Shown piece after piece: positions 4,556-17,003 of a stretch of 20,493 bases of DNA; the first letter of the stretch is position 1, and each line of letters starts with the position of its first letter. The DNA comes from a virus. A model generated the notes under the pieces. It made no database searches. It worked only from the letters and a program-made list of their open reading frames with translations, and was not told the origin of the DNA. The DNA lies in the IMG/VR virus record IMGVR_UViG_3300048592_001409, positions 1 through 20,493 of that record; one strand, written 5' to 3'. A program made the position numbers and the translations under genes.

Positions 4556-4972
4556 TCAGGAACGGAAGCGGAAGGCGAACTTGACCCTGGCCGGCCACTC
4601 GCCGGCATACGGCTCCTCGATCACCTTACGGCGCAGCGCATGGGCGTGGAGCAGATGCGGCTGCTCGTGCTTGATGGTGAGAAAGCCGCAATGGCAGGGA
4701 TAGGCGGCATCGGCGAAGACCAGGACGTCGCCGGCCACCGCCTCGAGCAGCGGGATGGGGTTCATGCAGGCGCGGAAGTGCTGGACGAAGCCCTGGCCTT
4801 GCGGTCGGCGACTGTAGGCGGTCGTATCGTAGTCGCTTAGGCCCAGAGCACGGCCGACCAGCACGACCAGCCCGGCGCAGTCGATGCCCCGGCGGGTGCG
4901 GCCTTGATGCCGCCAGGGCACGCCGAGCCAGGAGCGCGCAGCTACAACGATTTGCTCGGCCTCAACGCGCAT
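4556..4972 (-). CDS. NlpC/P60 family cell-wall peptidase of the tail tip
   Basis: This is a 138-aa cysteine peptidase of the NlpC/P60 fold. The nucleophile is expected to be Cys32 in 'GIDCAGLV' and the catalytic His is His94 in 'PCHCGF'. His109 or His111 in 'LLHAHALRR' probably completes the triad. The segment 'AVAGDVLVF' before the His is also typical of the family. In phages and gene transfer agents of this type it sits in the tail tip and cuts peptidoglycan cross-links during DNA entry. The gene overlaps the end of the DUF2163 gene by 11 bases and is followed after 23 bases by the tip protein gene, the standard order. Length agrees with the family (about 140 aa). There is no signal peptide, consistent with delivery as part of the particle. 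Confidence 0.92.
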   Translation of the reverse strand: MRVEAEQIVVAARSWLGVPWRHQGRTRRGIDCAGLVVLVGRALGLSDYDTTAYSRRPQGQGFVQHFRACMNPIPLLEAVAGDVLVFADAAYPCHCGFLTIKHEQPHLLHAHALRRKVIEEPYAGEWPARVKFAFRFRS

Positions 4973-6572
4973 CAGGGTAGCTCATCAACGCGTCCTGGCC
5001 CGGCACGTAGGGCTCGCCCCTGAAGTTCAGGACGTTGGCGAAGCGGTCGATGCAGGTGGCGAGGCGCTTGTCGCAGCCGGGATGGATGCGAAAGGCATCA
5101 CCGATCTCTATGGCGTAGCCCATCGGCAGGAAGAGCTCGATCAGGCTCGTCGCCTGCGTCCAGGCCTTGACCTCGATCGAACGGCCTGTGTTGGCACCGG
5201 TCTCCCAGGTAAGCACGCCACCGGCGAACCAGCTGTCGACGGCGCGCGGCTCGTCGATCGCGGCGGTGAAGCTGGTCCGGTCGACGACGCCAACGACACT
5301 ACCCGTTCGACTCCAGGCCTCCAGCGCCTCGAACACGGCAGTGCCATCCATGGTCTGCTGGTCGACGGTGGTGTCGTAGGCGGGCTGAACGGGGGCGGTC
5401 GTCCCAGCGACAACACAGCGATAGATGCGGTTCTCGAAGCCCGCCGCGGTCGGCAGCGATGCCGTCGTGTCGGTAACGACGGTCGAGATGGCATCGAACG
5501 CGGCGTTTGACTGGCTGCCGGTGACGAGCTGATGCAGCAACCGAATGCGCAAGACCCGCGTGTCCGAGGGAAACTGGGCCTGCGAGACGCCGCGTTGCAC
5601 CCAGCTGTCCTCCGGCACGATGACCTCGAAGCCGGTATCGAGGATGATGGACAGAACGTTGGTCGAGGCGTCCAGGGCCTCGACGACGACGCGCCCCAGA
5701 TCGTCAGGGAAAGAGTTCGCCCGGCTCAGCGTCAGGTCCAGCCGATAGGCGTCGGCATCGATCTGTGCGGGATCGAGACCACTCGAGACAAGGTCGATCG
5801 ACTGCGCCAGTTCGCCCGATGCCGAGCTGCCGCCTTCGAGGTAGAAGCCACCGGCCACCGGCGACAGCGCGCCGTTGCTCGCGTCATGCACATCCCAGTC
5901 GCCGGAGACCAAGGTCCAGCCGGTCGGCGTGAAGCCGGAACCGTCACCAGCACCATCAGCTTCGAACCCGCCGTTGCCGATCGGCAAGGGGAAGCTGGTC
6001 AGCGTGCCGGTCGTCCGCACCCGAACGATTTCTCCCAAACCATAGGCCGTCGCTCGCGCGATCTCGGGCGGCTGGATCGGCACCCGGCAGCGCTGGTCGC
6101 CGAGATCGGCGCGGCATTCCGGGCTATAGAGCTCGCCGATCCGCTGCTGCAGCACCTGGGTCAGGCCACGAAGCTCGGTACGGAACACGCCCTGTTCGGT
6201 CAGCACCACCTCGCCAAACCAGCCGCGGCGCAGCCGCAGGACACCCATCGAGGGATCGGCCCAGTTGACCAGGAAGATCCGCACCTCGGCCTGGTCGAAG
6301 AGCCCGGCCCTTAGCTCTTCCTCGGTGACGGCCGCGCTGTCGAACACGCCCTCGACGTCGAGATTGTCGACGCCCATGCCGGCATCGTTGGCAATGGCAG
6401 TGCGCGAGTAGGCGCCGCTCGCCTGGTAGATCTTGCCGTCGACCGCGAGATCCCGGTCGTGATCGGTGAAGCGGAACACCGTGCCGTCCGTCCGGGTGAT
6501 CCGCCAGCAGGTGGCGAGCGTGGTCACCTCGCCGGCGACATGGGTCGCGAGTGCCGTCGAGACCGCCTTCAC
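4962..6572 (-). CDS. DUF2163-type phage tail hub protein with an inserted carbohydrate-binding-like domain
   Basis: I place the start at a GTG whose bases overlap the TGA of the DUF2460 gene (GTGA), giving 536 aa. The longer open frame upstream is only the shadow of DUF2460. Residues 1-195 match the N-terminal part of DUF2163 ('CWRITRTDGTVFRFTDHDRDL', a segment near residues 21-41), and residues 376-536 match the C-terminal part ('HPGCDKRLATC', 'NVLNFRGEPYVPGQD'). Relatives are usually near 290 aa. The extra length is a block at about residues 200-368 that begins 'NGGFEADG ... GWTLVSGDW', a layout like galactose-binding or CBM4/9-like jelly-roll modules. In gene transfer agents the DUF2163 protein is part of the hub that joins tail and tip. 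The added module may contact host surface glycan; that is inference. Confidence 0.88.
   Translation of the reverse strand: MKAVSTALATHVAGEVTTLATCWRITRTDGTVFRFTDHDRDLAVDGKIYQASGAYSRTAIANDAGMGVDNLDVEGVFDSAAVTEEELRAGLFDQAEVRIFLVNWADPSMGVLRLRRGWFGEVVLTEQGVFRTELRGLTQVLQQRIGELYSPECRADLGDQRCRVPIQPPEIARATAYGLGEIVRVRTTGTLTSFPLPIGNGGFEADGAGDGSGFTPTGWTLVSGDWDVHDASNGALSPVAGGFYLEGGSSASGELAQSIDLVSSGLDPAQIDADAYRLDLTLSRANSFPDDLGRVVVEALDASTNVLSIILDTGFEVIVPEDSWVQRGVSQAQFPSDTRVLRIRLLHQLVTGSQSNAAFDAISTVVTDTTASLPTAAGFENRIYRCVVAGTTAPVQPAYDTTVDQQTMDGTAVFEALEAWSRTGSVVGVVDRTSFTAAIDEPRAVDSWFAGGVLTWETGANTGRSIEVKAWTQATSLIELFLPMGYAIEIGDAFRIHPGCDKRLATCIDRFANVLNFRGEPYVPGQDALMSYPDAR
5469..5975 (-). other. Inserted jelly-roll / carbohydrate-binding-like domain within the DUF2163 protein
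   Basis: This segment (about residues 200-368) is absent from a typical DUF2163 protein of about 290 aa. It starts with 'NGGFE' and contains 'GWTLVSGDWDVHD', 'GGFYLEGG' and 'ELAQSIDL', which is the usual start, tryptophan strand and strand pattern of CBM4/9-like or discoidin-like beta-sandwich modules. It ends before 'FENRIYRC', where the core resumes. The exact boundaries are estimated by eye. Confidence 0.55.
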
Positions 6573-7517: not shown

Positions 7518-7586
7518 CCGGTGCCACCCACATACTTCATGCCGGCCGGCGCGTCGCCGGGCAGGACACACTATCCAAGGACGCCG

Positions 7587-8633
7587 ATGATCCCCTACTC
7601 GGTTCTCGACCTCGCACCTATTCCGGAAGGCGGATCGGCGGGTGACGCGCTGCGCAACACGGCCGATCTGGCCCGGCATGCGGAGCGCTGGGGCTACCAT
7701 CGCTTCTGGCTCGCCGAGCACCACAACATGCCCGGAATCGCCAGTGCCGCCACCGCCATCCTGATCGGTCATGTGGCCGCGCAAACGTCGCGCCTTCGGG
7801 TCGGCGCCGGCGGCATCATGCTGCCGAACCACGCGCCACTCGTGATCGCCGAGCAGTTCGGCACGCTGGCGACGCTCTTTCCCGGGCGGATCGATCTCGG
7901 GCTCGGTCGGGCACCGGGGACGGACATGACGACCGCCCGAGCACTCCGCCACCACCTCGATGCCGGCGACAGCTTCCCGAACGACGTGCTCGAGCTGATC
8001 GGCTTTCTCGGCGACCCACAACCGGGCCAGACGGTTCGGGCCATTCCAGGGACCGGGACACGAGTGCCGGTCTGGATCCTCGGCTCTAGCCTCTATGGCG
8101 CGCAACTCGCGGCACATCTCGGCCTGCCTTACGCCTTCGCCTCGCACTTCGCGCCCGCAGCGCTCGATCAGGCGATTGCGGTCTACCGCCAGACGTTCCA
8201 GCCCTCGGCACAGCTCGATCGGCCGCACTTCATGCTGGCCATCAACGTCTTTGCGGCGGCCACCGACGCCGAGGGAGCTTATCTTCGCACTTCGATGCTG
8301 CAGGCCTTCGCCAATCTCAGGAGCGGACGGCCCGGCCCATTGCCGCGGCCGGTGGCTGACCTGGAGCACCATGTCGACCCGATGGCTTTGGCTTCGGCCG
8401 AGCAGGCGCTCACCGTCTCGCTAACGGGCTCTCCCGAGACCGTGCGCCAGGACCTCATGCGCCTCCTCAGCCGATACGAGCCAGATGAGGTCATCCTGAC
8501 CGGACAGATCCACGACCACGCTGCCCGCCTGCGATCGTTCGAGATCGCGGCCGAAATCCTCGGCTCGCTGGAGCACGACGCCGCTGCCATGCCGTCCCGA
8601 ACCTCTTCGACAATGGCGTCGCATCACCACTGA
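7587..8633 (+). CDS. LLM-class flavin-dependent oxidoreductase (luciferase-family group 1)
   Basis: This 348-aa protein is a bacterial luciferase-like TIM-barrel monooxygenase of the group often annotated 'luciferase family oxidoreductase, group 1' (YhbW-like). Diagnostic segments are '[11 protein letters not shown]' at residues 5-15, '[23 protein letters not shown]' across residues 28-50, '[14 protein letters not shown]' at 72-85 and '[16 protein letters not shown]' at 98-113. Such enzymes use reduced FMN and O2; the substrate here cannot be told. I chose ATG 7587 because family members begin just before 'VLDLAP' and AAGGA lies five bases upstream; the frame is open for 22 more codons upstream. 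It stands opposite to the phage genes, converges on the tape measure gene (14 bases between stops), and probably is cargo with no role in the particle. Confidence 0.9.
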
Positions 8634-8647
8634 CCGTTCTGGTCTCG

Positions 8648-11164
8648 TCACAGATTCCTTCGCGCCCGCTCTATCGCCCGGGCGGCATCGGCAGCGATCT
8701 GCCCTTGGCTCTGCCGGAAGCCGTTCGTATCCGGCGTCGTGATGTTCATCACCACCGTGACCGGCGGTCGTGTCTCGCGGGCCGAGCCGATTCCGGCGAC
8801 CTGGGCGCGGGAGAGGACCAGCTCGCCGCGCTGCAGGATGGCCGGCACCTCGTCGGGGCGGAGCCCGGCCATGCCACCGGCATGGAGACGTGGGGCGTCG
8901 GCGAAGGCCATGGCCGGCACCAGCCGTTGCGGGGCTGGGGCACCGACGAGCCCGCCGGCATGGAAGACGCCCGAGAGCATGCCGGCCTCGCCGCCACCGC
9001 CGAACAGGCCGCCGAAGAGCCCGCCGCCGGCCCCCATGCCACCGAGCGCGCCGGCGATCGGCCCGAGGATCGCCGAGCGGATGGCGATCCGGGTCAGGTC
9101 GGCCATGATGCTGTCGGCCAGGCCCTGGAAGTCGAGCTTGCCGCCGGCCACGAAGCCGGCGAGCGCGTCCTCGGCGCTGCGGAAGGCGCCGCCGAGCGCG
9201 GCGCCGAGCCCCTGGCCCCAGTTGACCGCGTCGTCGGCATAGCGGGCAAGCTCGTCGCGGACGGCGGCCCAGCCGGCCGCCGCCTGATCGGCCGCGTCCG
9301 CGATCGACCGGCCGGCCGTGCCCGCCGCCGCCGCGGCACCGGCCGCCGATCCTGCCGAGCCCTCGGCCGCACCTCCAGTGCCACCGCCGCCTGCGCCGGC
9401 GCCTGAACCACCGACAGCCGCGAAGGCCTCGTCCAGGCGTTCCGCCGCCACGGCAGCGTTGTCGATCTCGGTGGATGCCCCCGCCATCGCCGCGCGCAGC
9501 GCCGCCACCGAGGCGAGCGGTGCCCCAGCCAGCGCGCTCGTCGTCTCTGCCGTAGTCCGGGCATTCTCGGCAGCCCGGCGCGCCTGGTCCGCGAAGGCTC
9601 TGAAGCTGAGATCGGGGGCCCTGAACGCATCCGTCGCGAAGGCGGCAGCGAAGGCCTCCCGTGCCGAGGCACCGGCGCGGTCCGCCGCCCCGGCGAGCTG
9701 GTTCTCGACCCGGCCGAGATCGATCTCGGGCACGAGCGTGATCGTCCGCTCGAGGCCGATCGCCGCCAGACCGGCATTGACGCCGTCGAGCAGCCGGTTC
9801 AGGCCACCCACGGCACCGTTGAGCATCGCCTCGAGCCCGGCGATCAGCGCATTCGCCGCCTGGATCGTCAGATCGCCGATCGCCGTCGGCAGTACTCCCC
9901 AGATCGCCAGCATGGCGTCGAAGGCGCCCTGGAAGGTGTTGATCGCCTCGTTGCCGAAGCCGACGACGGCCTCGAGGCTGGCCTGCAACGCATCGGTGAC
10001 GCTCGCCTGGATGCCGAGCCAGGCAGCGGCGAGCCGGTCCTTCAGCACCTCGGCCATAAGGCCGATTCGCTCCCAGACCTCGCGGGCAACATTGCCGAGC
10101 AGCGTCAGCGCCGCGCCGAAGCCACCGGTGGCCTGCACCAGGCTGCCCAACTGGTAGATCAGCTCGCCAGCCGCAACCGCCAGCGCCCCGATCCCGGTGC
10201 GGATCAGGGCACCGCGCAGCAGGACAAGGGCAGTCGCGAGCCCGCGCACGGAGGCCGCGGCCACCACCATGCCGGCGACCCAGCGGCCGGCGATGAAGGC
10301 AGCGAAGGCGGCAGCGGTCGACGCAAGCCGACCGATGTTGTCGAAGAGCAGCTGGATGGCCCGGCCGAGCGGTCCGGTCCGGCGCGAGACCACGGCGAGC
10401 GCATCGGCGACGGCCTCCAGCGCCGGGGCGGCAGCCACGGCCAGCTGGTTCGAGAGACCTCGCCAGACGAGGCCCAGCCGGGAGATCGCATCGTTGGTGC
10501 GCTCGATCTGGTCGGCATCCTGCTCCGAGACCAACACACCGAAGTCGCGGACGTCCTGCGTCGCCCGCCGCAGCGTGGTGGTGTCGATCCGCGAGATGGC
10601 GATGCTGCCCTCCTCGCCGAACAGCTGGCCGGCGACGGCAGCGCGCTCGGCCGCGGGCACGAAGTCGAGGATCGCCCGGTTGATCCGTCCCACCCGCTCG
10701 TCCAGCGGCAGTTCGAGCAGCGCCGTGGCCGAGAGGCCGAGCCGCTCGAGGGCGGCCACGGCCGGCCCGGTCCCGGCAGCCGCCTGGCTGAGTCGGCGGG
10801 TGAGGTCTTTGGTCGCCTGCTCGATGCCCGACATCGACACACCGGCGAGATCACCCGCCCGCTCCAGCACCTGGACGCTCGCGACCGTGGTGCCCAGCGA
10901 CTGGGCGAGCTTGGCCTGGGCATCGACCACCTGGAGGCCCGAGCGGACCATCGCCGCGGCCCCGGCGGCAAAGGCCGTGGCAGCAGCAGCGGCGGCGAGC
11001 TGCACCCGCCGATAGAAGGCTGCGACCCGGGTGTTGGCGGCCTCCATCTCGCGCGACAGGCGGCGCATGCCCTGCTCGCCGGCCTCGCCGATACCCTGCA
11101 GCTCAGCCCGCACCTCGCGGCCGCCGACGACCGCCAGGCGTACGGACACTCTTTTCTCAGCCAT
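8648..11164 (-). CDS. Tail tape measure protein
   Basis: This 838-aa protein sets tail length and is ejected ahead of the DNA in siphophages. It starts with a charged, helical region ('LQGIGEAGEQGMRRLSREMEA' region, residues 22-43) and contains long Ala-rich helices. A hydrophobic stretch lies at about residues 278-345, and Ala/Gly-rich low-complexity sequence at about 590-630. The C-terminal signature of lambda-type tape measures is clear: 'FHAGGLVGAPAPQRLVPAMAF', then 'LHAGGMAGLRPDEVPAILQRGE' and a final domain 'TVVMNITTPDTNGFRQSQGQ'. These are quoted in pieces from residues 730-825. The ATG overlaps the end of the frameshifted chaperone reading frame by eight bases, as between lambda GT and H. 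At roughly 1.5 angstrom per residue the tail would be near 125 nm; this is a rule-of-thumb estimate. Confidence 0.93.
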   Translation of the reverse strand: MAEKRVSVRLAVVGGREVRAELQGIGEAGEQGMRRLSREMEAANTRVAAFYRRVQLAAAAAATAFAAGAAAMVRSGLQVVDAQAKLAQSLGTTVASVQVLERAGDLAGVSMSGIEQATKDLTRRLSQAAAGTGPAVAALERLGLSATALLELPLDERVGRINRAILDFVPAAERAAVAGQLFGEEGSIAISRIDTTTLRRATQDVRDFGVLVSEQDADQIERTNDAISRLGLVWRGLSNQLAVAAAPALEAVADALAVVSRRTGPLGRAIQLLFDNIGRLASTAAAFAAFIAGRWVAGMVVAAASVRGLATALVLLRGALIRTGIGALAVAAGELIYQLGSLVQATGGFGAALTLLGNVAREVWERIGLMAEVLKDRLAAAWLGIQASVTDALQASLEAVVGFGNEAINTFQGAFDAMLAIWGVLPTAIGDLTIQAANALIAGLEAMLNGAVGGLNRLLDGVNAGLAAIGLERTITLVPEIDLGRVENQLAGAADRAGASAREAFAAAFATDAFRAPDLSFRAFADQARRAAENARTTAETTSALAGAPLASVAALRAAMAGASTEIDNAAVAAERLDEAFAAVGGSGAGAGGGGTGGAAEGSAGSAAGAAAAAGTAGRSIADAADQAAAGWAAVRDELARYADDAVNWGQGLGAALGGAFRSAEDALAGFVAGGKLDFQGLADSIMADLTRIAIRSAILGPIAGALGGMGAGGGLFGGLFGGGGEAGMLSGVFHAGGLVGAPAPQRLVPAMAFADAPRLHAGGMAGLRPDEVPAILQRGELVLSRAQVAGIGSARETRPPVTVVMNITTPDTNGFRQSQGQIAADAARAIERARRNL

Positions 11165-11824
11165 CGCGTTCGGCCCCGATCCGGGCGTTCAGCCCACGCA
11201 CCATCATGGCCTCGATCTCCGGCAAGAGCTCGGCAGCGACGAGCGTGTCGACCCCCAGGGCCTGGGCCATGGCAAGCGCAGCGGTCATGTCGAGCCCCAG
11301 CACCGCACCCGGGACGACCCGCAGCTGCCCCGTGAGCCGCTGCGCCAGGTCCCACACCTGCCAGCCCTCGACGGTCAGCGGCCGGTTCAGGAGGGCGGGG
11401 CACTCGGCGCAGACGCCGGGGCAGGATCGGCAGTACTGCTCGCCGCCGCTGAAGTGCCAGTCGGCGAGAGAGCGGAGGCGTTTTTTTCCTCTTCCAGCAG
11501 CAGACCCTTGGAGACGTAGCGCAGCTGGAAGGCCTCGAAGAGCGGCAGGATGTCGAGGAGGGCCTCGATCCCATCCGGCGTGACCGGCACCGGGTTGCCG
11601 TCGGCGTCGCCGACGCCCTCCCAGTCCAGCACCACGAGCCGGGCCAGCGCCTTGGCCATGGCGACGGCGATGGTCTCGTTCGAGGCGCCGTCGGGCAGAG
11701 CGGTGACGGCGGGATCGCTGCGCGCCGCCGCCATGAGCGATGTCGTCAGCGGCCCGACGCGCAGGCGCACGCCGTGGCCGAGGTCGAGCCAGCGCGGCTC
11801 GCGGGAGAGGTCGAGACGAATCAT
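11157..11824 (-). CDS. Tail assembly chaperone GT (made by -1 frameshift, 222 aa)
   Basis: The longer chaperone product shares the first 115 codons with G (11824 to 11480), slips back one base on A AAA AAC, and continues in the -1 frame from 11480 to the TGA at 11157. I translated the -1 frame through the whole stretch and it is open, adding 107 residues. The extension begins 'RLRSLADWHFSGGEQYC' and contains 'CRSCPGVCAEC', a four-cysteine cluster suited to metal binding. It continues 'LTVEGWQVWDLAQRL' and ends 'GLNARIGAERDG'. In lambda and many siphophages GT binds the tape measure and the tube protein and is absent from the finished tail. The neighbours here are exactly tube upstream and tape measure downstream. 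A 66-codon frame starting with GTG at 11357 is only the end of this region. Confidence 0.85.
11387..11824 (-). CDS. Tail assembly chaperone G (zero-frame product, 145 aa)
   Basis: This protein lies between the tube and tape measure genes, the fixed position of the tail assembly chaperone. The N-terminal part 'MIRLDLSREPRWLDLGHGVRL' (residues 1-21) and the helix-rich middle are typical of small chaperones that coat the tape measure during tail assembly. The last about 30 residues, after the slippery codons, are Ala/Ser/Pro-rich ('SAAASSTADPAPASAP') and look like a passive tail, which fits a frame that mostly serves the shared N-terminal domain. The start is nine bases after the tube gene's stop. 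Its main feature is the slippery sequence at codons 113-115. Confidence 0.85.
   Translation of the reverse strand: MIRLDLSREPRWLDLGHGVRLRVGPLTTSLMAAARSDPAVTALPDGASNETIAVAMAKALARLVVLDWEGVGDADGNPVPVTPDGIEALLDILPLFEAFQLRYVSKGLLLEEEKNASALSPTGTSAAASSTADPAPASAPSAPPS
11480..11486 (-). other. Slippery heptamer A AAA AAC for programmed -1 frameshifting
   Basis: On the minus strand the zero-frame codons are GAA AAA AAC, giving the canonical X XXY YYZ heptamer A AAA AAC. A shift of -1 enters the open frame that runs to 11157. About 11 bases downstream, CTCGCCG (11468-11462) can pair with CGGCGAG (11445-11439) around a 16-base loop, a possible stimulatory hairpin. The run of seven A on this strand stands out in very GC-rich DNA. 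Confidence 0.85.
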
Positions 11825-11832
11825 GGTTGGCC

Positions 11833-13104
11833 TCAGGCGTAGGAGGGAACGTCGTTCAGGAGGTGGACGCGGAGCATGGTGCCCTCGGCGTCGTCGAAGG
11901 CGGCACGCCAGTCGAAGCTGGCCTCGACCCCGCCGGGGCCGGTCACCGAGTACTTGGGCTTGGGCAGGAAGACGCGGGGCAGCTCGAAGCGCAGGCTGTA
12001 GCCGTCCACGAAGCTGAAGCCGTATTCCAGGCTGACCGGATCACCGTTGGCGGCTTCGGCCACCAAGGTCGCCCCATCGAAGCGCACGGACATCGAGCCC
12101 TCGGCCGAGGCGAAGGTGGGATCGGCCGCCTCGATCCGGCCGTCCTCGCGGATGACCCGGACCCGCTCCAGGTTGTTCGAGAAGGTCAGGCTGCCGCCGG
12201 TGACGCCGGCAAGCGCAGAGCCGCCGCGACGGATGAAGCCGCGCCCCTGGCTGAAGCGACGCAGCGAGAAGGCATCGGGGCTCGCGTCGACCGTGGCGGC
12301 GAACCGCTCCTCGCCCTGCGCCACCAGTTGCAGCCGGGCATTGGCCGGCCCCTCTTGGCCCATCTCGAAGGTCAGGCTCTCCATCACCGTGCCGAGATGG
12401 CGGAAGAACACCGGTGTGGTGAGCCTGGGATGGCCGATCTCGATGGTGTAGCTCGGGATGTCGTCGGCCCCGCTCTCCCAGACATGGGCATGGCCGCCGC
12501 CGGTCAACGTCGGGGCGGAGACGCTCGCCGCCGAGGCCGCGAGGGTGAAGCTATTGCCGGTCGGCCCCGCCGTGTCGAAGGTGATCGCCAGGGTCTCGGT
12601 GCCTGTCGGCCGCGCGTACGTGCACTTGGCGATCTCGACATCGGCCGAGCCGTTGAGGTCGTCGACCAGCGCGTCGAGGGTCTGGATCAGCGTACCCTGG
12701 ATCTCGGTCTCGTTGCCGGAGGCCGTGCCCGCGACGAAGGTCCACGCCGTGCCGCCCAGCGTGATCGCGTCACCGGGCGACGGGTTCACGGCGAAGGCGA
12801 TCGAGCCCGTGGCCGCGACGGCCGTGGTCACCGGATCGCCGAACAGGCCGGTGAGCCAGAACCCGGTCCCGCGCAGGTCGAGCGGGATCTCGAGCTGGCC
12901 CTCGTCGGTGACGAGGCCGCGATAGGGATCCTGGGCGTTGCGGCCACGGCCGAGAAGCGGGTCGTCGCCCAGCGGCTGGGCCGAGGACAGGTCCGTCGAC
13001 TTGAAGTCGAGGCTCCGGTAGCCGGTAAGCGGCGGCACGCCATAGCTCGCCTCGCGGCAAGCCTTCAGCGTGGCGTCGGCGCCGTAGGCGCGCACCTTGG
13101 GCAT
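11833..13104 (-). CDS. Major tail tube protein with an inserted extra domain
   Basis: This 423-aa protein resembles the large tail tube proteins of alphaproteobacterial siphophages. Its N-terminus 'YGADATLKACREASYGVPPLTGY' region (residues 7-29) has the motif A-x-G-A...E-x-x-Y-G-x-P-P-x-x-G, and 'DLSSAQPLGDDPLLGRGRN' follows. A block at about residues 100-203 ('GDAITLGGTAWTFVAG ... TFDTAGPTGNSFTL') is a known type of beta-rich domain that recurs as an insertion in phage structural proteins. The tube core resumes at 'IPSYTIEIGHPRL'. The gene is followed after nine bases by the chaperone gene, as in the lambda V-G order. Length is well above lambda gpV (246 aa), partly because of the insertion. 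Start ATG 13104 is the only reasonable one. Confidence 0.85.
   Translation of the reverse strand: MPKVRAYGADATLKACREASYGVPPLTGYRSLDFKSTDLSSAQPLGDDPLLGRGRNAQDPYRGLVTDEGQLEIPLDLRGTGFWLTGLFGDPVTTAVAATGSIAFAVNPSPGDAITLGGTAWTFVAGTASGNETEIQGTLIQTLDALVDDLNGSADVEIAKCTYARPTGTETLAITFDTAGPTGNSFTLAASAASVSAPTLTGGGHAHVWESGADDIPSYTIEIGHPRLTTPVFFRHLGTVMESLTFEMGQEGPANARLQLVAQGEERFAATVDASPDAFSLRRFSQGRGFIRRGGSALAGVTGGSLTFSNNLERVRVIREDGRIEAADPTFASAEGSMSVRFDGATLVAEAANGDPVSLEYGFSFVDGYSLRFELPRVFLPKPKYSVTGPGGVEASFDWRAAFDDAEGTMLRVHLLNDVPSYA
12496..12807 (-). other. Inserted beta-rich domain in the tail tube protein
   Basis: Residues about 100-203 of the tube protein contain 'GDAITLGGTAWTFVAGTA', a helical piece 'LIQTLDALVDDLNGS' and 'TLAITFDTAGPTGNSFTL'. 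This pattern is familiar from insertions in unrelated phage sheath, tube and fibre proteins. It would probably decorate the outer surface of the tail. Boundaries are by eye. Confidence 0.5.
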
Positions 13105-13570: not shown

Positions 13571-13684
13571 TCATTCAGGCACCGCGAAGGATGACCGCCA
13601 GGTGAACCCGCTCTCGGGCGGCGTTCCACAGGTCGTCTCGAACGCAAGCGCAGTCAGCGCCCGCGCCCCCTGGGCTCGTGCCAT
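13571..13684 (-). pseudogene. Remnant of a second tail tube gene (37 codons)
   Basis: A short minus-strand frame begins ATG at 13684, encodes 'MARAQGARALTALAF' and continues 'ETTCGTPPESGFTW', then stops at 13571. It aligns with the start of the intact tube protein in the pattern A-x-G-A...E-x-x-(Y/C)-G-x-P-P-x-x-G-(F/Y). The opening 'MARAQGARA' resembles the start I associate with other alphaproteobacterial phage tube proteins. It is located directly behind the first terminator-like gene, just as the intact tube gene is located behind the second. I read it as what is left after most of a tube gene was lost. A short functional peptide cannot be excluded. Confidence 0.65.
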
Positions 13685-13708
13685 GGTGTTCTCATCGGGT
13701 TGTCGGGA

Positions 13709-14125
13709 TCAGCCGAGCGGATCGGCCGTGGAATATTGCAGCACCACCGGGATCACGGCGGCCTTCAGGCTCGCAGCGTCCTCGACCGGCAGATCGACCG
13801 GCCGCGGCGCCTCTGCCTCGACCCAGTCGCAGAGCCCGCCAGGCGTGCGGTCGGCGGCAAGTGCCGCCCCGATGCTGGCGCAGAGCGTGTCGAAGGCGAC
13901 GTCACGGGTCGCGCCCTGCACGACGACCTCGATCTCCGCGCGGTGCCGGTAGTGATAGCGTACGGGCGAGAGCGTGACCTCGGGCTTCCCGGGCTCGCCG
14001 TCACGCAGGATCAGCAGGCCCTCGGATGGGACACGCTCGGGCAGCACCTCGCCGCGCAGGGCGGTGGCGGGCAGCGCCGAGAGCCGCGCATGCAGCACGG
14101 TGAGGATGGTTTCGCGGGGTGTCAT
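13709..14125 (-). CDS. Tail terminator-like protein, copy 1
   Basis: This 138-aa protein is a paralogue of the gene at 13127-13558. Shared segments include 'GEVLPERVP', 'LLILRDGEPGKPEVTLSP' and 'YHYRHRAEIE', and both end in Y-x-x-x-DPL. The start ATG at 14125 overlaps the TGA of merR (ATGA) and matches the start of its paralogue ('MTPRETIL' against 'MSRREDIL'); the frame upstream is only the antisense of merR. There is no good Shine-Dalgarno sequence before it, so in the present arrangement translation may depend on ribosomes finishing merR. As the remaining tube stub follows it, this is probably the older or displaced half of a terminator-tube pair. Whether both copies are used is unknown. 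Confidence 0.75.
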   Translation of the reverse strand: MTPRETILTVLHARLSALPATALRGEVLPERVPSEGLLILRDGEPGKPEVTLSPVRYHYRHRAEIEVVVQGATRDVAFDTLCASIGAALAADRTPGGLCDWVEAEAPRPVDLPVEDAASLKAAVIPVVLQYSTADPLG

Positions 14126-14547
14126 GGATCCGCCGAGTTGGAGATTGCGTCGAGCACCGGACAGTCCGGAACCTCGGCGCCCGAACACCTGGATGCGGTT
14201 GCAGCGAGGACGGCTTCGATGCGCCGAAGATCCGCGATCCTCGCGCGGACATCGGCGAGGTGACGCTTCGTCCGCTCCTTGACCTCGGCGCAGGTCGGTG
14301 CGGCGCCGTCTTCGAGCCCCATCAGCCCGCGGATGCCCTCCATCGAGAACCCGAGTTCGCGGGCGCGCAGGATGAAGCGCAGGCGCGTGGCGTGAGCGGC
14401 GGAATAGTTGCGGTAGCCTGCGCTCGTCCGGGGCGGGTCGGGCAGAAGGCCGGTCTTCTCGTAATAGCGGATCGTCTCGATGTTGCAGCCGGTCGCCCGG
14501 GCCAGATCTCCCCGCGTGAAGCCGCTCTCGCGGTCGTGATCTGACAT
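14122..14547 (-). CDS. merR: MerR-family metal-responsive regulator of the mer operon
   Basis: This 141-aa protein has the MerR winged-helix at residues 8-50 ('FTRGDLARATGCNIETIRYYE', 'AGYRNYS'), then a dimerisation helix and a metal loop. Cysteines likely to bind metal are Cys86 ('APTCAEVKE'), Cys121 and Cys129 ('CSGAEVPDC'). The 35-residue distance from Cys86 to Cys121 equals that of Tn501 MerR, but the last pair is C-X7-C, one shorter than the C-X8-C of classical MerR and like CueR. By context it senses Hg(II) and switches the divergent merTPFA promoter from repressed to active. AAGGA four bases before the ATG at 14547 fixes the start; the frame extends further upstream without support. 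Its stop overlaps the start of the next phage gene. Confidence 0.9.
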   Translation of the reverse strand: MSDHDRESGFTRGDLARATGCNIETIRYYEKTGLLPDPPRTSAGYRNYSAAHATRLRFILRARELGFSMEGIRGLMGLEDGAAPTCAEVKERTKRHLADVRARIADLRRIEAVLAATASRCSGAEVPDCPVLDAISNSADP

Positions 14548-14560
14548 GCGATCCTTCCTG

Positions 14561-14591
14561 TTGAGCCTGTAGTTGCTACAGACCCTACACC
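14561..14591 (+). promoter_or_regulatory. mer operator-promoter (MerR-type, long spacer)
   Basis: TTGAGC (14561-14566) and TACACC (14586-14591) are -35- and -10-like hexamers separated by 19 bases, longer than the usual 17, the mark of MerR-activated promoters. The dyad CTGTAG-TTG-CTACAG (14567-14581), perfect over 6 bp per arm, lies inside the spacer. It is placed between merR and merT and is expected to control both. Confidence 0.85.
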
Positions 14592-14622
14592 CACTGTCAC
14601 CCATAGACGAGAGGTGCGCGAC

Positions 14623-15012
14623 ATGGCGCTGACAGGCGACGGAACGGACAGCGAGGGCGCGGATCACCCGGCCCGAAAGGGTTGGGTGGCGGCGGGCGGG
14701 GTGCTGGGTGCCATTCTTGCCTCAGCCTGCTGCGTGGGGCCGCTGGTTCTGCTGACCCTCGGCATCTCCGGCGCTTGGATCGGCAATCTGACGGCGCTGG
14801 AGCCTTACAAGCCAATCTTCGCCGTGATCGCGCTTGGCTTCATCGGTTCCGGATTTCGGCAGGTGTATTTCCGCAAGGCGGTAGTCTGCGAGCCCGGTTC
14901 CTACTGCGCAAGGCCAGCATCGGCGCGCATCACCAAGACCGCGCTCTGGGCCTCCCTCGTCCTCGTTGTCGCAGCACTCACCATCGACTGGTGGGCCCCG
15001 TTTCTCTACTGA
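14623..15012 (+). CDS. merT: Mercuric ion transport protein MerT
   Basis: MerT is an inner-membrane protein that takes Hg(II) from MerP and passes it to the cytoplasm for MerA. This copy has 129 aa and three hydrophobic helices. The first contains the vicinal pair Cys36-Cys37 ('SACCVGPLVL'). The cytoplasmic loop has the second pair Cys89 and Cys95 ('CEPGSYC'), matching the family pattern. The N-terminal about 20 residues ('GDGTDSEGADH') are longer and more acidic than in Tn501 MerT (116 aa). ATG 14623 is preceded by GAGAGG at a suitable distance; a GTG three codons earlier is less likely. It is the first gene of the plus-strand mer transcript. Confidence 0.95.
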   Translation: MALTGDGTDSEGADHPARKGWVAAGGVLGAILASACCVGPLVLLTLGISGAWIGNLTALEPYKPIFAVIALGFIGSGFRQVYFRKAVVCEPGSYCARPASARITKTALWASLVLVVAALTIDWWAPFLY

Positions 15013-15030
15013 CCCCGAAAGGATATCCCC

Positions 15031-15336
15031 ATGAAGAAGATCCTTGCACTTGCCCTGTTCGGCCTGACAGCCGTCGCCCCGATGACCGCCAGTCCTGCCG
15101 TCGCGCAGTCCGTCGTCGCGGAGCAGACTGTCACCTTCGCGGTCGATAACATGACCTGCGCGCTATGCCCCGTGACGGTGAAGCGCGCGATGGAAGGCGT
15201 CGCGGGCGTCCGCGCCGTCGAGATCGACTTCGAGGCGCACACCGCCACGGTCGTCTTCGATACTGCCGCGACCAGCGCTGACGCCATCGCGACCGCGTCG
15301 GCCAATGCAGGCTACCCGGCGCGCGTCTCGGGCTGA
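15031..15336 (+). CDS. merP: Periplasmic mercury-binding protein MerP
   Basis: MerP is a small periplasmic Hg(II) carrier with the heavy-metal-associated fold. The 101-aa precursor has a signal peptide with likely cleavage after 'SPAVA' near residue 25. The binding motif is M-T-C-A-L-C at Cys43 and Cys46 (GMTCxxC type; here Asn replaces the usual first Gly). 'AMEGVAGV' and 'ANAGYPARV' are standard family segments. AAAGGA lies upstream of the ATG, 18 bases after the merT stop, consistent with co-expression. It is predicted to hand mercury to MerT or MerF. Confidence 0.95.
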   Translation: MKKILALALFGLTAVAPMTASPAVAQSVVAEQTVTFAVDNMTCALCPVTVKRAMEGVAGVRAVEIDFEAHTATVVFDTAATSADAIATASANAGYPARVSG

Positions 15337-15340
15337 CGGT

Positions 15341-15574
15341 ATGACCAAGCAGACCGACCGCAAGCTGATCGCGACAGGAATTGTCGGCACCGTCATCGCA
15401 GCGCTCTGCTGCTTCACGCCGGTGCTGGTAGTGCTTCTCGGCGCCGTGGGTCTGTCAGCTTGGCTTGGCTGGCTCGACTATGTGCTGCTGCCCGCGCTCG
15501 CCTTCTTCGCAGCACTCACCGTCTATGCCGTATGGCGGCGGCAGCGGCGGCTGAACATTCGAACGGATGGATGA
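15341..15574 (+). CDS. merF: Mercury transporter MerF
   Basis: MerF is a second small inner-membrane Hg(II) transporter with two membrane helices. The 77-aa protein has helices at about residues 10-36 and 43-64, with the vicinal pair Cys23-Cys24 in 'ALCCFTPVLV'. The described MerF has a second Cys pair near its C-terminus; here the C-terminus is 'WRRQRRLNIRTDG' with no cysteine. The ATG at 15341 fits the family start and lies four bases after merP. Its TGA is overlapped by the merA start, so it is translationally coupled to merA. The protein is likely active, but the missing second pair is unusual. Confidence 0.88.
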   Translation: MTKQTDRKLIATGIVGTVIAALCCFTPVLVVLLGAVGLSAWLGWLDYVLLPALAFFAALTVYAVWRRQRRLNIRTDG

Positions 15575-17003
15575 CCTTATGAAGGACGCTTGCTGCGCGC
15601 CCGGGAGTGACTTCGACCTTGCCGTGATCGGCGCCGGATCGGCCGGGTTCTCGGCCGCGATCACCGCCGCCGAAGGTGGCAAGCGCGTCGCGCTCATCGG
15701 CCATGGCACCATCGGCGGCACCTGCGTGAACGTGGGCTGCGTGCCCTCCAAGACGATGATCCGCGCCGCCGAGGCAGTGCACGGCGCGCGGGCGGCATCC
15801 CGGTTTCCGGGCCTCAACGGCGAGGCGCAGGTCGCAGACTGGGCGGCGTTGGTCGCGGCCAAGGACGATCTCGTCTCGACGCTCAGACAAAAGAAATATG
15901 CCGATCTGCTGCCGGGCTACGAGGGCGTGAGTTATATCGACGAGGGTTCCGCGCGGCTCGTCCGCGGCGGTGTCGAGATCGGCGGGCGCAAGATCACGGC
16001 TCCCAAGGTGATCGTCGCCACCGGCGGGCGCCCCGCCGTTCCCGATATCCCCGGCATCCCGGACGTCCCGACGCTCGACAGCACATCGCTTCTGGAGCTG
16101 GACCAGTTGCCCGAGAGCCTGATCTTCCTCGGCGGCGGCTACATCGGCGTTGAGTTGGCGCAGATGATGGCGCGGATGGGCACCCGCGTCACCATCGTGT
16201 GCCGTTCGCGCCTTTTGCCGCGTACCGAACCGGAGGTGTCCGCCGCGCTCACCAAGGTCTTGCGCGCGGAGGGTGTCACGGTTCTCGATGGCGTGATTTA
16301 CGATGGCGCGCGGCGCGACGGAGACCATGCCGTCCTTGCCGTGACGGTGGGCGGCACCGCGCGCGATCTGACGGCTGACCACCTCGTCCTGACCACGGGA
16401 CGCGCGTCCAATACCGAGGGGCTGGGCCTGGCCGATATCGGCGTCGAGACTGATGCGCGCGGCGCGATCCGCGTCGGCGACGACATGCAGACCACGAAGC
16501 CCGGCATCTTTGCGGCGGGCGACGTGACCGACCGCGACCAGTTCGTCTACATGGCCGCCTACGGCGCCAAGCTCGCGGCACGCAATGCAGTGCTGGGCGG
16601 GGCCGAACGCTACGCCAACGGCGCGATGCCGTGGGTGGTCTTCACCGATCCGCAGGTCGCCGGTGTCGGCCTGGCCGAGGCGCAAGCGCGGGCGGCGGGT
16701 CATGATGTCAAGATCAGCGTGCTGACCCTCGACAACGTGCCCCGCGCGCTGGCCGCCCGCGACACGCGCGGGCTGATCAAGCTGGTGGCCGATGCGCAAA
16801 CCGACCGCTTGCTGGGCGGGGTGATCATGGCGCCGGAGGGGGCCGATAGTGTCCAGACGCTCGTCATCGCGCTGAAAGCCGGCATGACCACCAAGGCGCT
16901 CGGCGAGACTATCTTCCCCTATCTCACCACCGCTGAGGGCCTGAAACTCGCCGCGCAGACCTTCGACAAGGATGTCGCGAAGCTGTCCTGCTGTGCCGGT
17001 TGA
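15567..17003 (+). CDS. merA: Mercuric reductase MerA (short form, no N-terminal metal domain)
   Basis: MerA is a cytoplasmic FAD/NADPH disulfide oxidoreductase that reduces Hg(II) to Hg(0). This 478-aa form lacks the N-terminal NmerA domain found in Tn501 MerA (561 aa). FAD-binding 'GAGSAG' is at residues 22-27; the redox pair is Cys53/Cys58 in 'GTCVNVGCVPSK'. NADPH-binding 'GGGYIGVELAQ' lies at about 190, the second FAD motif 'GIFAAGDVTD' follows, and the C-terminal Hg-binding pair is in 'LSCCAG'. 'FPYLTTAEGLKLAAQTF' holds the conserved tyrosine. A short N-terminal 'DACCAPG' (Cys9, Cys10) is present. The ATG at 15567 overlaps merF by eight bases; an ATG four codons later (15579) is possible. 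The gene ends 49 bases from the stop of the oppositely oriented DUF6441 gene. Confidence 0.96.
   Translation: MDDLMKDACCAPGSDFDLAVIGAGSAGFSAAITAAEGGKRVALIGHGTIGGTCVNVGCVPSKTMIRAAEAVHGARAASRFPGLNGEAQVADWAALVAAKDDLVSTLRQKKYADLLPGYEGVSYIDEGSARLVRGGVEIGGRKITAPKVIVATGGRPAVPDIPGIPDVPTLDSTSLLELDQLPESLIFLGGGYIGVELAQMMARMGTRVTIVCRSRLLPRTEPEVSAALTKVLRAEGVTVLDGVIYDGARRDGDHAVLAVTVGGTARDLTADHLVLTTGRASNTEGLGLADIGVETDARGAIRVGDDMQTTKPGIFAAGDVTDRDQFVYMAAYGAKLAARNAVLGGAERYANGAMPWVVFTDPQVAGVGLAEAQARAAGHDVKISVLTLDNVPRALAARDTRGLIKLVADAQTDRLLGGVIMAPEGADSVQTLVIALKAGMTTKALGETIFPYLTTAEGLKLAAQTFDKDVAKLSCCAG

Follow-up and report, generated by a model that had tools for sequence, protein, structure and literature searches.

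A tail assembly chaperone gene of the lambda G/GT type in an alphaproteobacterial prophage family, with a probable −1 ribosomal frameshift and a conserved downstream hairpin

In phage lambda, a −1 slip near the end of gene G yields a short and an extended tail assembly chaperone, G and GT (Levin 1993; Xu 2004, 2013, 2014, as cited in PMC5009743). The window analysed here, a 20,493-nucleotide stretch of viral DNA (IMG/VR record IMGVR_UViG_3300048592_001409), has a chaperone gene at the same gene position, and an open −1 frame continues beyond it. This raises the question of whether the two frames are joined by the ribosome. Comparison with relatives indicates that this prophage gene very likely encodes a lambda-type G/GT chaperone made by −1 ribosomal frameshifting.

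Slip site and reading frames of the G/T locus

The zero-frame product G, a tail assembly chaperone of 145 aa, is encoded by an ORF at positions 11387..11824 on the minus strand and matches phrog_313 (E 7.5e-23). The tail tube protein gene lies upstream (11833..13104, minus strand; Phage_tube_2, E 9e-46) and the tape measure protein gene downstream (8648..11164, minus strand; phrog_8462, E 8e-156, and Tape_meas_lam_C), and the locus is thereby placed as in lambda-type G/GT. The heptamer A AAA AAC reported by the first-pass annotation is located exactly at 11480..11486 on the minus strand, in the codon context GAA AAA AAC of G. Because its first base is codon position 3, the frame is right for a tandem −1 slip; site and frame are read directly from the window. 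AAAAAAC occurs only once on both strands of the 20 kb window, where dinucleotide shuffles expect 0.02 occurrences. The −1 extension T (11157..11480, minus strand) consists of 107 codons followed by a TGA stop at 11159-11157, giving a shifted product GT of 222 aa. The same annotation had the −1 frame open up to the tape measure start, and this is correct: the T stop overlaps the start ATG (11164), reaching eight bases inside the tape measure gene. The window therefore carries two marks of a G/GT gene, an X XXY YYZ heptamer in the zero frame close to the 3′ end of G, and a −1 frame that is open, conserved and finished by the tape measure start.

In 47 of 58 relatives, the distance from the heptamer to the stop codon of G (11387-11389 in the window) is exactly 30 codons. 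This stop sits inside the CTGAAC coding for a conserved Leu-Asn of T, so that the T code appears to set the G stop.

Two scans of viral contigs and one of genomes yielded the relatives, which lie in prophages, mostly from Rhodobacterales and other members of the alphaproteobacteria. Only identical sequences were removed from the resulting 201 distinct G-T regions, which are related by descent and partly metagenomic. Of these, 191 carry a correctly phased slippery heptamer followed by T in the −1 frame. The heptamer reads A AAA AAC in 188 regions, G GGA AAC in two Rhodobacter capsulatus phages and A AAA AAA in a single Synechococcus phage. Among the exceptions, L102 has a run of six As and L027 is without one base. 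More distant homologues were gathered with the DUF7697 model described below and by further scans with single proteins as queries, and an in-frame heptamer is found in all 78 scorable loci (74 AAAAAAC, 4 GGGAAAC). In the overlap, T is the frame under constraint, with an identity of 0.73, compared with 0.60 in the zero frame and 0.63 in the third frame. Such directly observed conservation, together with joined CDSs in GenBank records of relatives, strongly supports the −1 frameshift reading of the first-pass annotation.

These joined CDSs belong to the R. capsulatus phages RcKemmy (MW677517) and RcFrancesLouise (MW677512), whose homologous G and GT have the same gene order, a −1 frame T with four cysteines and a downstream hairpin. 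The joined CDS is already annotated as a tail assembly chaperone there, and the authors of these phages call the frameshift usual (PMC8601537), so both mechanism and system are already known. Their proteins share 42-46% identity with those of the window, and their heptamer is G GGA AAC whereas that of the window is A AAA AAC. The expectation that standard gene calling would miss GT is thus only partly borne out: a mechanical ORF caller does yield a 66-aa GTG fragment at 11357-11157, and Pfam and PHROGs hold a fragment of unknown function, but the R. capsulatus phage records join T.

Other genes of the window depart from the tail module. A mercury resistance operon is located inside this module at 13601-17003, with MerR on the minus strand and MerT, MerP, MerF and MerA on the plus strand. 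MerR terminates where a second tail terminator gene (13709-14125) starts; there is one terminator per locus in 95 of 96 loci of relatives. The block 13601-15242 is found at the same place in two relatives (L153 and L158) with 87% DNA identity, and MerR-MerT-MerP with the same terminator is also found in L138, L154, L157, L164 and L165. Together these relatives comprise seven genera, and several of them agree with one another at 99.9% identity. The window thus has the look of a recombinant of this mer phage, although the near identity across genera could also reflect contamination. In addition, a luciferase-like monooxygenase gene of the MsnO8 family (7521-8633, plus strand; TIGR03558, E 1e-133) lies between the tape measure and DUF2460 genes, opposite in strand to the tail genes, and was not seen in the flanks of the relatives.

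Hairpin downstream of the heptamer

In 58 sequences less than 90% alike, the folding energy is exceptional only just 3′ of the heptamer, with a mean z of −3.2 at 0-50 nt and about 0 elsewhere. Fold comparison places there a family hairpin with a 12-bp stem, an 8-nt loop and a 7-nt spacer after the heptamer, in which 94.9% of cells are paired. Such a spacer falls within the 5-9 nt or so at which a stable stimulatory stem is looked for. At the corresponding position in the window (11441..11472, minus strand; stem 11472-11461 with 11452-11441), 9 of the 12 pairs are formed, with three mismatches, compared with 11 pairs in the nearest relatives. The fold predicted for the window involves different pairings and is of unexceptional stability (z −1.36), which suggests that the stimulator may be weak or re-registered in the window. 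This minimum-energy fold, when transferred to the family, leaves 81% of cells paired, and its pair 16-37 fails in 55 of 57 relatives.

The first-pass annotation had proposed a hairpin 11 nt downstream of the heptamer. Its 7-bp stem, CUCGCCG/CGGCGAG, does exist in the sequence (11439..11468, minus strand), but it is specific to the window and is not the predicted minimum-energy fold there. Among 57 relatives, 46-50 lack its end pairs. The conserved stem is the 12-bp one, in a different register and with the shorter spacer.

The frameshift could be real and the hairpin a mere by-product of GC-rich coding for conserved protein sequence that does nothing to stimulate slippage. The stem arms indeed code for conserved residues, a weakened stem is tolerated in the window, and there is no covariation in excess of shuffles: the 57-sequence alignment contains one double change, the same as the shuffles, because almost every change in the stem replaces C by U opposite a G. 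RNAalifold gave a weak partial stem on this alignment, and the pairs of the named stem were therefore counted instead; Rfam has no match at the frameshift site. However, the natural sequences are far more stable than recodings synonymous in T, having a mean energy of −25.6 against −17.6 kcal/mol and 11.3 against 8.4 pairs (mean z −2.4; 53 of 58 below −1.5), and this excess stability is a direct observation. Sliding the pairing register lowers the paired cells from 95% to 41-61%. In distant groups, too, a stem persists at roughly this spacing, built from other bases and in another register, and these groups give z values of −3.6 and −2.1 in the recoding test. A second encoded protein accounts poorly for this region as well, since conservation in the zero-frame tail does not exceed that in the third frame. 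A by-product is therefore unlikely, although it is the strongest of the rival explanations.

Judged from these comparisons, the hairpin of the relatives probably slows the ribosome and thereby raises slippage. A AAA AAC is less slippery than A AAA AAG in E. coli (PMC5009743), and so a stimulator would be useful.

Alternative origins of the T product

Five of the 201 relatives (L002, from Roseisalinus antarcticus CECT 7023, L003, L090, L175 and L004) have A8 instead of A7, and their G and T form one uninterrupted ORF. L004 has several other frameshifts nearby; in the other four, the tail genes look intact where visible. All five contigs retain the hairpin, and the old G frame reaches a stop at the usual distance of 30-36 codons, indicating that the change is either recent or a sequencing error. 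These relatives might instead be viable with a reversed logic, in which full-length GT is the default and slippage on A8 gives rise to a short, G-like product, but this is improbable. L003 also has about 650 bp between T and the tape measure gene (4678-5334), genes that overlap in other relatives.

Slippage of RNA polymerase rather than of the ribosome on the A7 run would also produce a GT message. The run is exactly seven As long in the window and at all 191 counted A AAA AAC sites, many of them from isolates, and the A8 variants add to this picture. However, G GGA AAC contains no long run, and some relatives, distant homologues among them, have only six As (L087, L265, L266 and L268). This variety of heptamers fits tandem ribosomal slippage and not transcriptional slippage, and the slip site is followed at a constant distance by a structured element, so that there is very little to be said for a transcriptional origin. 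Equally slight is the chance that T is translated independently from an internal start such as the GTG at 11357, from which the 66-aa ORF can be called and which would account for the 52-55-aa fragments in databases. There is no conserved start and no evident Shine-Dalgarno sequence; in 7 of 53 relatives the stretch ahead of the GLD/GWD motif lacks any start codon, and conservation of the −1 frame extends across the cysteine region as far as the heptamer. That the frameshift is a sequencing error in a single A8 ORF, as the five uninterrupted relatives might suggest, is hardly credible given the constant A7, the other heptamers at the same position, and the A8 contigs that keep both hairpin and usual G stop distance, one of them with further frameshifts.

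The T domain and the G/GT system

Programmed ribosomal frameshifting, the preferred reading, would join to G a domain with distinctive features. The segment CRSCPGVCAEC, to which the first-pass annotation had drawn attention, is present at 11400..11432 on the minus strand. Alignment of T regions finds its four-cysteine pattern in 180 of 184 sequences, and the cysteines are invariant in one alignment. Among the four that lack the pattern, L205 and L086 retain four cysteines but space them differently, L177 carries an indel, and L074 is short of one cysteine. Because the cysteines are arranged as two CxxC pairs, a putative zinc site is a reasonable guess; a literature search on zinc in tail chaperones returned nothing relevant, and a sequence search of the PDB found neither a relative nor a metal-bearing structure.

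The portion of T at 11166..11318 (minus strand) matches PF24752 (DUF7697) and phrog_11212. T scores 83.2 bits against the curated cut-off of 27, and the model matches all 47 of 47 T sequences. DUF7697 and PHROG 11212, filed under unknown function, are the C-terminal half of the T domain. PF08809 (DUF1799) scores 18.5 bits over 57 residues, below its cut-off of 26, and is perhaps distantly related to T. Databases carry T as fragments of 52-55 aa, and NCBIfam has no family for GT. The DUF7697 model also rings in the Caulobacter vibrioides control genome, which suggests that a related prophage tail module may be present there.

An AlphaFold2 model of the GT of the naturally fused relative L003 was built from 110 aligned rows, with rows from GenBank phage records left out, and has a mean pLDDT of 88. 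Its matches in BFVD are phage tail chaperones (E 1e-6); Foldseek gave no significant match in the PDB. In a second-look alignment the HK97 chaperone 2ob9 came first, over residues 5-107 of the G part, with a weak Z of 4.3 at which a tie with unrelated rows is possible, and no sequence similarity to it was found. The measured shift in a chaperone cluster related to that of HK97 is 6-7% (PMC3711429). Acinetobacter phage Loki gp12/gp13, for which an AAAAAAC shift has been proposed, is among the structural matches in BFVD; the relevant passages of PMC5313236 describe no hairpin and no four-cysteine pattern in T. Lambda gave no sequence match, and the T with four cysteines and DUF7697 and the conserved hairpin are features of the window family.

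By analogy with these systems, most ribosomes would translate G through to its stop, and a minority would shift into the −1 frame at A AAA AAC, where the tRNAs in the P and A sites would re-pair with AAA AAA, to yield GT. Tails of this type need both proteins, in a balanced ratio. The hairpin 7 nt past the heptamer in relatives would promote this slip. In lambda, both chaperones attach to the tape measure protein, and T brings in the tail tube protein (PMC5009743). By homology, G and the G part of GT may coat the tape measure protein while T recruits tail tube subunits, the product of the upstream tail tube gene being the likely partner of T. The four T cysteines would probably coordinate a single structural zinc.

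To the known system, the present analysis adds the conserved hairpin of the relatives, the near-invariant cysteines of T, and the placement of DUF7697 and PHROG 11212 in T. It gives a role to families filed as unknown, and illustrates that fragments of frameshifted proteins turn into orphan families. The alphaproteobacterial family is a set of natural variants, with three heptamers, intact and weakened hairpins, and A8 fusions, through which the tuning of the G:GT ratio by phages of GC-rich hosts can be explored.
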